Positions 9,838-27,952 of a DNA stretch of 33,547 nucleotides are shown piece by piece. This DNA is from a virus: the IMG/VR virus record IMGVR_UViG_3300022918_000026, positions 1-33,547 of that record; one strand, given 5' to 3'. The notes under the pieces were generated by a model. That model was not told the origin of the DNA and made no database searches. It saw only the letters and a program-made list of their open reading frames with translations. The position numbers and the translations under genes are program-made. Position 1 is the stretch's first letter, and every line of letters starts with the position of its first letter.

Positions 9838-11978
9838 AGCCGCTAATAGAGGTCGGCTCCGTCGATATCGATGCAATCAAGGCTCACTACCCGCTTGCGG
9901 ATTTTGTTGGTGAAACTGTCGCGCTGAAGCGTAAGGGCGGATCTCTGGTCGGGCTTTGCCCGTTCCATGATGAGCGCACGCCTAGTTTCACGATATACGA
10001 GAGCGACCAGCATTATACCTGTTACGGCTGTGGCGCATGGGGCGACCTGTTCGACTTCGCCAAGCATATTAAGGGTTGGTCGATCCGCGAGACGGCGGAG
10101 AATCTAAATGGTGGGATCATTCCAACCTATAGCTCCGATCAGATCGAGCAAATCAGGGCGAAAGCTTTGGCCGCCGAAGAGGTGCGCAATGCCCGGCGCA
10201 AAGAAGTCGTGCTTGAAGCACGGCGACGTTGGGACGCCGCGGTTCCTGCCATCAAGCACGATTACCTAACGCGCAAAGGCGTCGATGCGCACGGCACGCG
10301 TATGGAGTCCAGTGGGTTGCTGCTGGTTCCCTTGATCGGCACCGATGGCAAGGTGCAGTGCCTGCAAACCATATCCGCCGATGGGCAAAAGCTGTTCCTG
10401 AAAGACGGAACGGTAAATGACGGATTTTTCATCCTCGGCGGTAAGGTATCGGAAACCGTTGATACTGTGATGATAGCTGAGGGCTTCGCTACCGCTGCCA
10501 CTGTGCAGCAAGCGACTGGCCGGGTAACGATCTGCACATATAACGGTGGGAACATGGTCAATGTGGCCAAGTTTTTCGCTGATAAATACCCGCGCAAGCA
10601 ATTCCAAATTGCTGGTGATGACGACCACGGTAAGAAAGACAATGCTGGCGTTAAATCGGCTGTCGCCGCGGCTCAGGCTGCAGGTTGTGATTACATCCTG
10701 CCGCTGCGCAAGGAAGGATCTAGCGCCACCGACTTCAACGATATGGCAGTAGAGTACGGCTTGGAGGCTGTCACCAGCTATATAATGAGCGGCGAGGTGC
10801 CGGACGATGCTGAGCCGCCTACCCCCGAGCCGTTGCCCGACAGCGTATCGATCCGGCCTCTGGCTCCGTTCGACGCTACTGCTATCCCGGTTCGCCCCTG
10901 GGTCATCCGCGGCTGGTTGCTCAAACGCCAAGTGGCCATGCTTATCGCGCCGCCAGGCGTCGGCAAATCGACCATCACGCTACAGCAGGCCATCGCAATC
11001 GCGACCGGCATGGACTGGGGCGGCTGGAAAATCGAGCGGCCGGGCAAGGTGCTGCTAATCAACGTCGAGGATGACATTGATGAAATGCAGCGGCGTTGCG
11101 CCGCCGCGCTCGATGCTATGGGTCTGACGCAGGCAGATATCGCCGGCAAACTGTTCATTCACGATGGCGATCGGGAGTTCCTGATTATCAAGTCGATGCC
11201 CAACGGCGAAGTGATCTGGTCGCCGTTGGTTTCCGAGCTGACCGAAACCGTGATCCAGAACGATATCGGGGTGCTGATTGTGGATCCATTCGCGGAAACA
11301 CTGGTCGGTGAAGAGAACAGCAACGACGCGATGAAGAAAGCGGCCACCGGCTTCCGCCAGGTAGCAAGAGATGGCAACTGCGCTGTACTGCTGGTGCAGC
11401 ATACCAGCAAGGCCATGTCCACCGCTGCGGGTGATATGAACGCCTCGCGTGGCGGCAGCTCACAGACAGGCGTTGTACGCACTGCGGCTACGCTGTTCGA
11501 CATGGGCGCTGATGATGCGGCCAAGTTCGGTCTGCCGGACAAGGACAGGCGCTTCTACATCCGTTGGGATGATGCCAAATCAAACCAGTCCCTAAAGTCT
11601 GGTGAGCCGCTGTGGTTCCGCAAGGTTAGTGTCGATATCGGCAACGGAAGCGGGTTGCATGGCTCTGACAGCGTGGGAGCGATGGAGCCGTGGTCTCCGC
11701 CTGATGCGTTCGACAATATCTCTGTGGATATCGCGAACCAGATCCTGAACGAGCTGGCAGCAGGCACGTATAAGGAAGATCGCCGGGCGATCGTCAATGG
11801 CGACTGGGCAGGCTGTCCGGTAATGCGGATTGCCGAAAAGTCAGAAGAACAGGCCGTCCGTATCCTGCGCGTGTGGCGTGACAATAGCGTGCTTGAGCAG
11901 TTCAAGGACAAGGATCCGAACACCCGGCAGACCCGCAATTACGTGCGCGTGGTCGAGAAGAACAGGCCCCGGCTATGA
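9834..11978 (+). CDS. Fused primase-helicase (CHC2 zinc finger, Toprim, RepA-like ATPase)
   Basis: From GTG 9834 the product is 714 residues; an in-frame GTG at 9711 adds 41 residues, but these have no primase character and lie over the folded leader. Domains: CHC2 zinc finger with C42, H45, C63, C66 (CPFHDERTPSF ... CYGCG); Toprim with the glutamate in MIAEGFA (about 216) and acidic GDDD (about 261-264); then a RecA-fold ATPase with Walker A APPGVGKST (about 372-380), Walker B VLIVDPF (D484) and a QHTSKA sensor (about 522). It should unwind DNA and lay primers at the phage fork. With no polymerase gene in view, it probably hands over to the host replisome. Confidence 0.9.
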   Translation: MKPLIEVGSVDIDAIKAHYPLADFVGETVALKRKGGSLVGLCPFHDERTPSFTIYESDQHYTCYGCGAWGDLFDFAKHIKGWSIRETAENLNGGIIPTYSSDQIEQIRAKALAAEEVRNARRKEVVLEARRRWDAAVPAIKHDYLTRKGVDAHGTRMESSGLLLVPLIGTDGKVQCLQTISADGQKLFLKDGTVNDGFFILGGKVSETVDTVMIAEGFATAATVQQATGRVTICTYNGGNMVNVAKFFADKYPRKQFQIAGDDDHGKKDNAGVKSAVAAAQAAGCDYILPLRKEGSSATDFNDMAVEYGLEAVTSYIMSGEVPDDAEPPTPEPLPDSVSIRPLAPFDATAIPVRPWVIRGWLLKRQVAMLIAPPGVGKSTITLQQAIAIATGMDWGGWKIERPGKVLLINVEDDIDEMQRRCAAALDAMGLTQADIAGKLFIHDGDREFLIIKSMPNGEVIWSPLVSELTETVIQNDIGVLIVDPFAETLVGEENSNDAMKKAATGFRQVARDGNCAVLLVQHTSKAMSTAAGDMNASRGGSSQTGVVRTAATLFDMGADDAAKFGLPDKDRRFYIRWDDAKSNQSLKSGEPLWFRKVSVDIGNGSGLHGSDSVGAMEPWSPPDAFDNISVDIANQILNELAAGTYKEDRRAIVNGDWAGCPVMRIAEKSEEQAVRILRVWRDNSVLEQFKDKDPNTRQTRNYVRVVEKNRPRL

Positions 11979-26362: not shown

Positions 26363-27061
26363 ATGCCGCCTGTAATCATTGGTGCGGGCATCGCGGCGGC
26401 GGGTTCGATTGCCGGGTCTGCGATTTCCTCGTCTGCCAACAAGAAGGCGAGCAAGGCTCAGCAGGCGGCTGCTAATGCGCAGATCGAAGAATCGCGCCGC
26501 AATCAAGCCTATATTACGGGCCTGGAGCAGCCGGCTATCGATCGCGGCAATCTGGCTGGGGCGGCTTACAGTAATTTCCTTGGGTTGGGTGGTGCTGGAT
26601 CGCAGCAGCAGGCGCTCGATACGTTCCGCGGCGCAACCGGCTATCAGGACATCCTGAAAACGGGTTTGGGGGCTGTTAACAGCAACGCCTATGCTCGCGG
26701 TCTGGGGGCTTCGGGCGCGACGCTGAAGGCGCTGCAGGCGCGCGGCTCGGCTATCGCCGACCAGTCGGCGCAATCGTATCTCGGCAATCTAAACACACTC
26801 AACCAGACCGGGCAGCAGGCGGTAGGGACGATTGCGGGGGTTGCGCAGAATACGACCAACAACATCAATGGCGCGACGCAGAACGCCGCGAACGGTGCGA
26901 GCAACGCTGCTCTGGCGAATGGTGCCAACTGGACGCAGGCGCTGCAGAATATCGCCAATATCGGCGGCTCGACGCTCGGCTCCAGCTACGGCACCAGCGC
27001 GTATGCGAAGCCGCCCAACAACGGCATGTACGGTGTCAACGGCTCGGACGGTATTTACTGA
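26363..27061 (+). CDS. DNA ejection protein, gp7-like
   Basis: A 232-residue protein with a hydrophobic glycine/alanine N terminus (IIGAGIAAAGSIAGSAISSS), then a helical QAYITGLEQPAIDRGNLAG region, YQDILKTGLGAVNSNAYARG and ASGATLKALQARGSAIADQS, typical of the small ejection proteins of P22-like phages. These are packaged in the head and injected to build a conduit through the envelope. It overlaps the next gene (stop at 27061). The C terminus is asparagine/glycine-rich. Confidence 0.85.
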   Translation: MPPVIIGAGIAAAGSIAGSAISSSANKKASKAQQAAANAQIEESRRNQAYITGLEQPAIDRGNLAGAAYSNFLGLGGAGSQQQALDTFRGATGYQDILKTGLGAVNSNAYARGLGASGATLKALQARGSAIADQSAQSYLGNLNTLNQTGQQAVGTIAGVAQNTTNNINGATQNAANGASNAALANGANWTQALQNIANIGGSTLGSSYGTSAYAKPPNNGMYGVNGSDGIY

Positions 27062-27696
27062 TGGCCGAAGTGAACTGGAACTTGGCCGGTCCCGGCTTCG
27101 ATGCGTTGCAGGTGCTGCAGGCCGCGGGGCAGACGTACCCGCAACGCCAGCAGCGAGAGCAGGTGCAATACGCGCGCCAGCAGGATCAGCAGCAGAACGA
27201 CCAGCGCCAGGCGCAGATCGATCGCGCGTATCTCGACAAGATGGACGAACGGCAGCGCGCAGAGGCAAAGTCGCAGATCGAACAGTTCGGGCAATTCGCC
27301 TTGCTAGCCGATACGCCGGAAAAGTGGGATGCGACCGTCCAACAATATGTGCAGATGGGCCATCCTGAAGCCGCGCAATATGTCGGCAAGTTTTCGCCGC
27401 AGTTGCGACAGGCTTTCATTGCGCAGGCCGGGGAAGCAAAGGCTTATCTCGACCAGCAGAAGGTTGACTACAAAGTTATCCCTGAGGGCGGCTATCTGCA
27501 GGGGTTTAATCAACAGGGTCAGCCTTTGGGAGACGTGGCCACACAGCCTCGCCAGGCGCCAGTGCAAGGCGGTGCGGACTTGGAGGCACAGGCACAGGCA
27601 GCAATCGCGGCGGGCGCTGATCCCGTCAAGGTGCGTGCCCGTATGCAGCAGATGCAGGGAGGTGCGGGGTCGCAAGCCCCGCGTTCGTTTCCCTGA
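27061..27696 (+). CDS. DNA ejection protein, gp20 position
   Basis: A 211-residue glutamine-rich, helical protein: [20 protein letters not shown] is a probable coiled coil, followed by [20 protein letters not shown] and a long helix ending in a [20 protein letters not shown] region. This matches the second ejection protein of P22-like phages in place and composition. The frame ends TTT-CCC-TGA-C; a +1 slip there would extend it into the M15-type peptidase frame to 296 residues. Confidence 0.78.
27664..27696 (+). other. Candidate +1 frameshift site (CCC-TGA shifty stop with upstream hairpin)
   Basis: The last sense codon and stop of the gp20-position gene are CCC TGA (27691-27696) followed by C. 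Sliding one base forward gives CCT GAC, entering the open frame of the next gene without a break. TGAC is a poor termination context. A 6-bp all-GC hairpin (GCGGGG 27664-27669 / CCCCGC 27677-27682) ends eight bases upstream. The downstream ATG at 27701 has no ribosome binding site. Confidence 0.5.
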
Positions 27697-27700
27697 CCCT

Positions 27701-27952
27701 ATGCGCGCACCCGGCACAATGACGAGCGGCCGGCGCACCGTCGAAGGAAACCGTGCTGTCGGGGGTGTCGCCACCAGCCATCATCTAACCGGCGATGGCG
27801 TCGATTATACTGGCACGTCGATCCAGCAACTGCGCAACTATTTCGGTGCAGGGGCGCGGTTCCTTGACGAGGGCGATCATATTCACACGACCTTGCCCGG
27901 CTATGGCAAGGTGCCTTATTTTGGCAAGCGCGGCACTCAGGGGCGTAGGTAA
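27701..27952 (+). CDS. M15-type peptidoglycan peptidase domain
   Basis: An 83-residue frame with [17 protein letters not shown], then [11 protein letters not shown] and [11 protein letters not shown]. This is the pattern of M15A-type D,D-peptidases, with zinc ligands at about H28, D35 and H62. Such domains cut peptidoglycan cross-links and occur in phages as ejection-protein domains or endolysins. Independent start at 27701 (or ATG 27719) lacks a ribosome binding site; a +1 frameshift from the upstream gene would fuse it to the gp20-position protein. It overlaps the gp16-position gene as TAATG. A virion-borne wall-cutting role fits its neighbours. Confidence 0.75.

Follow-up and report, generated by a model that had tools for sequence, protein, structure and literature searches.

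The virus record IMGVR_UViG_3300022918_000026 (33,547 nt; "the window" below means this whole stretch) carries an open reading frame (ORF) in the position of the P22 ejection protein gp20, and behind it, in another frame, lies a wall peptidase domain of the M15 type. We consider it highly probable that the end of this ORF is a programmed +1 ribosomal frameshift cassette, which would yield a short ejection protein and a hydrolase-tailed fraction. A programmed +1 frameshift by itself is very likely. What is described below on the layout and how far it is conserved, on the hairpin, on the invariant UUU-Y and on the exchangeable hydrolases comes from comparison of sequences.

The 3' end of the ORF reads TCG TTT CCC TGA, then C (Table 1). 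The +1 frame is open from upstream of the junction, takes up CCT from 27692 and runs through the peptidase domain to a TAA at 27950-27952, for a joined product of 296 amino acids, with SFPDPMR as the predicted peptide across the junction. An earlier, sequence-only reading of this DNA had described the CCC-TGA-C ending, the entry of the +1 frame into an M15 domain and two predicted products of 211 and 296 residues, and all of this is verified in the sequence. It had also proposed that the fusion of a gp20-position ejection protein to the peptidase is programmed, driven by a proline slip at a poor TGA-C terminator. The programmed +1 fusion is supported by our analysis; the two drivers are not. 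Absent from that reading were the GGAGG and the invariant TTT (27688-27690) on which our account centers.

Table 1. Features of the junction in the window and the evidence for each
Feature	Position	Strand	Evidence or remark
Whole recoding cassette, 42 nt	27655..27696	+	Covariance model R1, 48.4 bits, E=1.3e-9
Shine-Dalgarno-like GGAGG, in frame as GGA-GGT	27658..27662	+	Zero column entropy in aligned +1 loci
7-bp hairpin GCGGGGT CGCAA GCCCCGC	27664..27682	+	Linker minimum free energy -14.2
Slip site TTT-C (proposed P-site UUU -> UUC re-pairing)	27688..27691	+	TTT in 64/64 +1 M15 loci
+1-frame extension, M15_3 peptidase domain and stop	27692..27952	+	Pfam PF08291
0-frame ORF, short product, gp20-position ejection protein	27061..27696	+	211 amino acids; label from position
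0-frame stop TGA	27694..27696	+	Second codon after TTT; same place in 44/62 +1 loci

Conservation of the frame offset

Relatives were collected with the M15 part as query in two scans of viral contigs and one of 84,980 genomes. This gave 71 distinct analysable loci and three with altered anchors, 74 in all. The hydrolase frame is offset by +1 in 65 of them and by -1 in four; in-frame fusions, which the sequence-only reading had suggested looking for in homologues, make up the remaining five. Every one of the 74 has GGAGG, a hairpin, a short spacer and then TTT followed by C or T. Where the closest relatives have a named host, it belongs to the Sphingomonadales, cultured strains included, and +1 junctions occur in isolate genomes of S. 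parapaucimobilis, S. pseudosanguinis, Sphingomonas sp. Leaf9, S. jatrophae, S. baiyangensis and Sphingobium sp. YR768. Programmed frameshifts are generally recognized by a slip site and offset that persist across diverged homologues and by a conserved putative stimulatory element. The first is seen here in the 65 of 74 loci at +1 with TTT invariant, and the second in GGAGG with its covarying hairpin, whose putative role would be to stimulate shifting.

A sequencing or assembly error, or the decay of a gene, could in principle have broken a single in-frame fusion, and a few relatives (L035, L074, L090) do have the hydrolase in frame. We give this explanation a negligible probability. An error restoring one frame, which the sequence-only reading had named as a possible refutation, is excluded because the +1 offset recurs in 65 of 74 loci, isolate genomes among them. 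The catalytic residues of the domain are also kept, and its median ratio of nonsynonymous to synonymous polymorphism (pN/pS) is 0.36. At the level of the family, error or decay is already refuted.

The GGAGG, the hairpin and the TTT

All 64 +1 M15 loci have TTT in the upstream frame, with C after it in 63 and T in one, whereas TTT makes up only 28% of the Phe codons elsewhere in the same loci. The GGAGG is codon-aligned in 64/64 +1 loci, where GGA makes up 11% of the upstream Gly codons; the single exception to GGAGG among the aligned loci is GAGG in L079. From GGAGG to TTT the spacing is 25 nt in 51 loci, 22 nt in nine and 28 nt in four. The spacer always folds into a hairpin of 6-9 bp, the end of which lies 3-6 nt (in most loci 4-5) ahead of TTT. 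Once this hairpin is looped out, the effective distance between GGAGG and TTT is 3-8 nt, while the linear length shifts by whole codons.

There are 55 distinct hairpin sequences among the +1 loci, and the mean linker minimum free energy is -13.5 versus -4.2 in control windows from the same genes. For the 35 sequences in one register, 94.6% of the pair cells are kept, as against 63.3% when shuffled and at most 47.1% when slid. The covariation score of the same set is 0.741, compared with 0.194 for shuffled and at most 0.193 for slid versions. In the window itself, 5 nt separate the hairpin from TTT and 8 nt separate it from CCC. The sequence-only reading had placed it correctly at eight bases upstream but had called it all-GC, and one of its pairs is G-U. 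The second-best match of model R1 in the window scores 9.5 bits. A naive motif scan of 1.07 Mb returned zero copies outside such junctions, and no family in Rfam matches the cassette.

The peptidase extension

The +1 extension matches Peptidase_M15_3 (PF08291) with E=1.3e-7 and 32.1 bits, against a cut-off of 23.2. The zinc-site residues in SxHxxGxxxD and ExxHxH are invariant in 14 aligned relatives (columns S29, H31, G34, D38, E60, H63 and H65), and the pN/pS value given above, a median over 62 sequences, indicates purifying selection. Among structures, the best sequence match is 1lbu (E=0.0084).

No ribosome-binding site lies at the normal distance from the ATG that follows the junction, and this ATG is not conserved; its position in relatives is TTG, CTC, CTA, ACT or AAC. 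The statement in the sequence-only reading that the downstream ATG lacks a ribosome binding site holds, and there is no usable separate start. T4 gene 38 is an example of an internal start whose Shine-Dalgarno (SD) sequence is brought close by a hairpin, and the hydrolase might likewise be a separate gene initiated internally from the GGAGG. A strong SD-like sequence and a hairpin do precede the domain, and ATG or TTG occurs early in it in some loci. However, what stands at the SD-effective position in every +1 locus is UUU, not a start codon. The PDPM position often has no start, and L049 and L089 have GTA at the TSGRR position. The phases of TTT and GGA keep the continuity of the upstream frame in all loci. 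We regard an internal start as extremely unlikely.

Which codon slips

In 62 +1 loci, the codon after TTT is CCC in 33, CGC in 21, CGT in three, CCG in two, CTC in two and TGA in one. Loci with an SLT-type hydrolase (below) also have TGA, TAA, CAA or CAC there. Counting from TTT, the 0-frame stop is codon 2 in 44 of the 62 and ranges from codon 1 to 16 in the rest. The anticodon of tRNA-Phe is GAA. We favor a slip by this tRNA on UUU, because the following codon varies and UUU-Y alone is constant; tRNA-Phe moving from UUU to UUC or UUU, with the SD and hairpin as stimulators, is the likely event.

The sequence-only reading instead had the proline tRNA shift on CCC (CCC to CCU) with UGA in the A-site, as in tsh of Listeria phage PSA. 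That phage does use CCC_UGA (PMC5009743), as the reading had stated, and the likeness to the present case is superficial. CCC TGA is present in the window and in many relatives, and the fused peptide F-P-D is identical for slips on CCC and UUU. Nevertheless, CCC follows TTT in little more than half of the loci counted above, and a P-site slip on CGC could not re-pair and would yield a different peptide. The SLT-type loci with TTT TGA or TTT TAA have no proline codon at all, and UUU-Y is invariant. A stop that may lie up to 16 codons from TTT does not fit a TGA-C context as the driver either. A CCC slip is unlikely as a general mechanism, and we think it very improbable that the proline reading is the right one.

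Loci with a -1 offset or an in-frame hydrolase

The four -1 loci (L017, L021, L043, L064) share the slip sequence CCCTTTCCCG, with the heptamer C CCU UUC. Their hairpins are weak, at -3.2 to -6.0, and GGAGG lies at an effective distance of 9-14 nt. Among loci of another M15 type, L317, L320 and probably L315 are also -1 junctions, ending in a region of the CCT TTC type. An SD sequence 3 nt away stimulates +1 shifting and one 9-14 nt away stimulates -1 shifting (PMC5009743), and a stable hairpin beside the E-site raised +1 and attenuated -1 shifting on 70S ribosomes in vitro (PMC6321510). The natural +1 and -1 variants appear to match both rules. The -1 relatives look like an evolutionary switch in the direction of the shift.

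In five M15 loci (L034, L035, L046, L074, L090) and in three of another M15 type (L310-L312), the cassette is intact though the hydrolase is in frame. The +1 frame of these eight stops after 2, 2, 3, 3, 11, 3, 3 and 3 codons, and the -1 frame runs for 9-43. This suggests that the roles are swapped, normal reading giving the long form and a shift the short form, a proposal we hold loosely since it draws on only eight related loci and some of the +1 stops stem from a common ATG-A sequence. L034, L046 and L053 had been candidates for in-frame fusions lacking the cassette; they were rejected when it was found further upstream in all three, and L053 is a +1 locus.

A module in front of different wall hydrolases

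The cassette precedes several different wall-cutting enzymes in related phages and prophages, more than 100 in number. A covariance model that describes only the signal and holds no protein information was run on 399 Sphingomonadaceae and 295 Sphingomonas genomes. In the latter set it gave 12 matches at E<=0.002, and 12/12 are +1 junctions into a wall hydrolase. The enzymes found behind the cassette are M15, an extra domain followed by M15 (L284), and SLT transglycosylases of two kinds (PF01464: L180 and L182; L287, which L288 resembles by eye). Searching viral contigs with two SLT domains added 31 distinct contigs that carry the cassette, and in all of them TTT requires a +1 shift; L212 among the SLT search results has a variant with GGGGG. 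The other M15 type contributed additional +1 junctions.

A wider class sample of 385 genomes held no convincing cassette outside Sphingomonadales; the matches L290-L292 from the wider Alphaproteobacteria were not hydrolase junctions on inspection. The same was true of most weak matches of the model (L179, L181, L183-L187), and several of the discarded ones resemble terminator-type hairpins. A conserved extra domain of about 90 residues (NIDLHSRPIVRNRDGSISTVRS...) lies between cassette and M15 in L284, L177, L034, L046 and L053; it has no Pfam match in L284 or L177.

One match lies in a different setting. Positions 1504-1900 of L178 hold a cassette-like linker (GGAGG, hairpin, TTTCCC; covariance model E=1.6e-5) within a 632-residue protein that looks TraG-like by eye and has no Pfam match. 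The linker is in frame with what follows it, a peptidase-like C-terminus that has an HLH motif. This is possibly the same module in a conjugation system.

Proposed mechanism and products

We infer the slip mechanism, the roles of the SD and hairpin, the product ratio, packaging into the virion and the use of the enzyme as follows. A ribosome on the ejection gene would cross GGAGG and melt the hairpin, which would re-form behind it, adjoining the E-site, once UUU occupies the P-site. Folding would put GGAGG, able to pair with the anti-SD of 16S rRNA, at its short effective distance from UUU. The duplexes at the rear of the ribosome could then pull the mRNA forward as tRNA-Phe moves to UUC (or UUU), and the shifted ribosome would continue one base on, into the peptidoglycan hydrolase. 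Unshifted ribosomes would terminate within a few codons and release the short ejection protein.

A virion-borne wall hydrolase is plausible, and the tailed fraction could open the wall during DNA delivery. P22 is described in PMC8402733 as injecting about 12, 12 and 30 molecules of gp7, gp16 and gp20. At a gp20-like copy number, shifting at a frequency of some percent would leave each particle with a few copies that bear the enzyme, which we consider the most plausible use.

Several points weigh against this account. The loci are kin to one another, so the counts are not numbers of independent events. Sequence comparison does not tell the contribution of GGAGG apart from that of the hairpin, and it is mechanically unusual for an elongating ribosome to have a hairpin placed between an SD duplex and its P-site. 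The AlphaFold (AF2) model of the M15 domain is mediocre (pLDDT 70.8), and Foldseek found no significant fold match for it in the PDB. In the eight in-frame loci, the shift would not be the source of the long form.

These eight loci also bear on a different view of a real frameshift, in which it chiefly regulates or sets the ratio of ejection-protein isoforms and the hydrolase activity is incidental. The cassette is kept in them, and a +1 shift stopping after 2-11 codons would give the short form. Against this view, the downstream domain belongs to a peptidoglycan-hydrolase type and retains its motif, and this holds in different families. We rate a chiefly regulatory or ratio-setting role as unlikely.

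We lean toward a broader reading of the cassette as a modular signal, in which a looped-out hairpin links an SD sequence to the P-site, making a +1 device that serves exchangeable hydrolases, can evolve in direction and keeps both products. A stable hairpin with UUU-Y would give +1, and a weak, distant hairpin with C CCU UUC would give -1. With the hydrolase in frame, a +1 shift would make the short form, so that both products are kept whatever the frame of the enzyme.

Comparison with known systems

The cassette resembles the release factor 2 gene, prfB, in its +1 direction, an internal SD-like sequence 5' of the slip and the proposed P-site re-pairing on a U-rich codon, and its TTT TGA variants resemble CTT TGA. 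It differs in its likely slip codon, UUU rather than CUU, in having a conserved hairpin between SD and slip codon, and in not being autoregulatory. In prfB the slip is CUUU with a stop in the A-site; here a stop directly follows TTT in 1/62 M15 loci and a few SLT loci. The SD of prfB lies 3 nt upstream, whereas that of the cassette is 22, 25 or 28 nt away in linear terms and reaches 3-8 nt only with the hairpin looped out. The prfB frameshift is absent from most Sphingomonadales (PMC12421855), whose phages nonetheless carry this +1 cassette.

Listeria PSA (cps, tsh) offers phage structural genes in which a +1 shift near the stop extends a virion protein at its C-terminus. Its slip codon is CCC, accompanied by a 3' pseudoknot or stop (PMC5009743), while the cassette would have a UUU slip, 5' stimulators and an enzyme as the extension, with CCC after TTT in 33/62 loci only. 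Influenza A PA-X (UCC_UUU_CGU) likewise shifts +1 from a P-site UUU followed by C, a context often continued by CGN in the cassette (PMC5009743); it is eukaryotic, depends on UCC, has no SD or 5' hairpin and is not homologous. A Mesorhizobium symbiosis-island integrative and conjugative element shifts +1 at UUU in an alphaproteobacterial mobile element, in a different gene; PMC5009743 stresses a conserved upstream Trp-Gly (nascent peptide) for it and mentions no SD-hairpin module. The 5' stem loop of T4 gene 60 also moves mRNA by refolding behind the ribosome (PMC5009743), there for a long bypass. Engineered E-site hairpins stimulate +1 shifting on 70S ribosomes (PMC6321510), but as in vitro constructs rather than a natural, covarying, modular cassette.

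In the open-licence literature we found no description of the cassette and nothing relevant on frameshifts in Sphingomonas phages or in ejection or hydrolase genes. If our reading is correct, this is a large natural family of phage +1 signals with a 5' SD-plus-hairpin stimulator. The family could readily be used to test how the frame is steered by duplexes behind the ribosome, for which the evidence cited here comes from engineered constructs. It would also give short-tailed phages a route to load a limited dose of wall enzyme into the virion, with the enzyme swappable while the recoding signal stays.

Gene neighborhood and cyanophage Pam1

The structural genes of the window correspond to components of P22-like podophages: terminase, portal, major head protein, head-closure protein and a DNA-ejection family protein. 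The last of these (phrog_598, E=2.3e-18) is the 5' neighbor of the 211-residue ORF, and a 904-residue ORF follows on the 3' side. For the 211-residue protein, Pfam gave nothing above cut-off and PHROG gave no family, and homology to P22 gp20 was not found in either comparison; the protein's gp20 label is positional, from gene order, as in Pam1.

By portal comparison, the closest named phage is this Pseudanabaena cyanophage, at about 40% identity. No cassette match was found in the stretches searched of Caulobacter phage SR18 and cyanophages Pan3 and Pam5. Viral contigs searched with the Pam1 extension described below gave zero relatives. Pam1 itself, an isolated phage (L294, ON014753.1), has the cassette at 11170-11211 (34.5 bits), at the extreme end of Pam1_14. 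Its +1 frame encodes a 102-residue domain with SxHxxxGxxxD-like and HWH motifs, which Pfam does not recognize and which by eye appears M15-like. Mass spectrometry of Pam1 structural proteins is mentioned in PMC9382816. The "hypothetical protein" Pam1_15 (11366-11515) is apparently the tail of the +1 extension of Pam1_14, in the frame running from 11207 after TTT. Its listing as a small internal ORF thus appears to be a case of annotation missing a frameshift product. Across the Pam1 junction, the predicted tryptic peptides are GGQAAPPPAGFR for the +1 product and GGQAAPPPAGFSDWL for the 0 frame.
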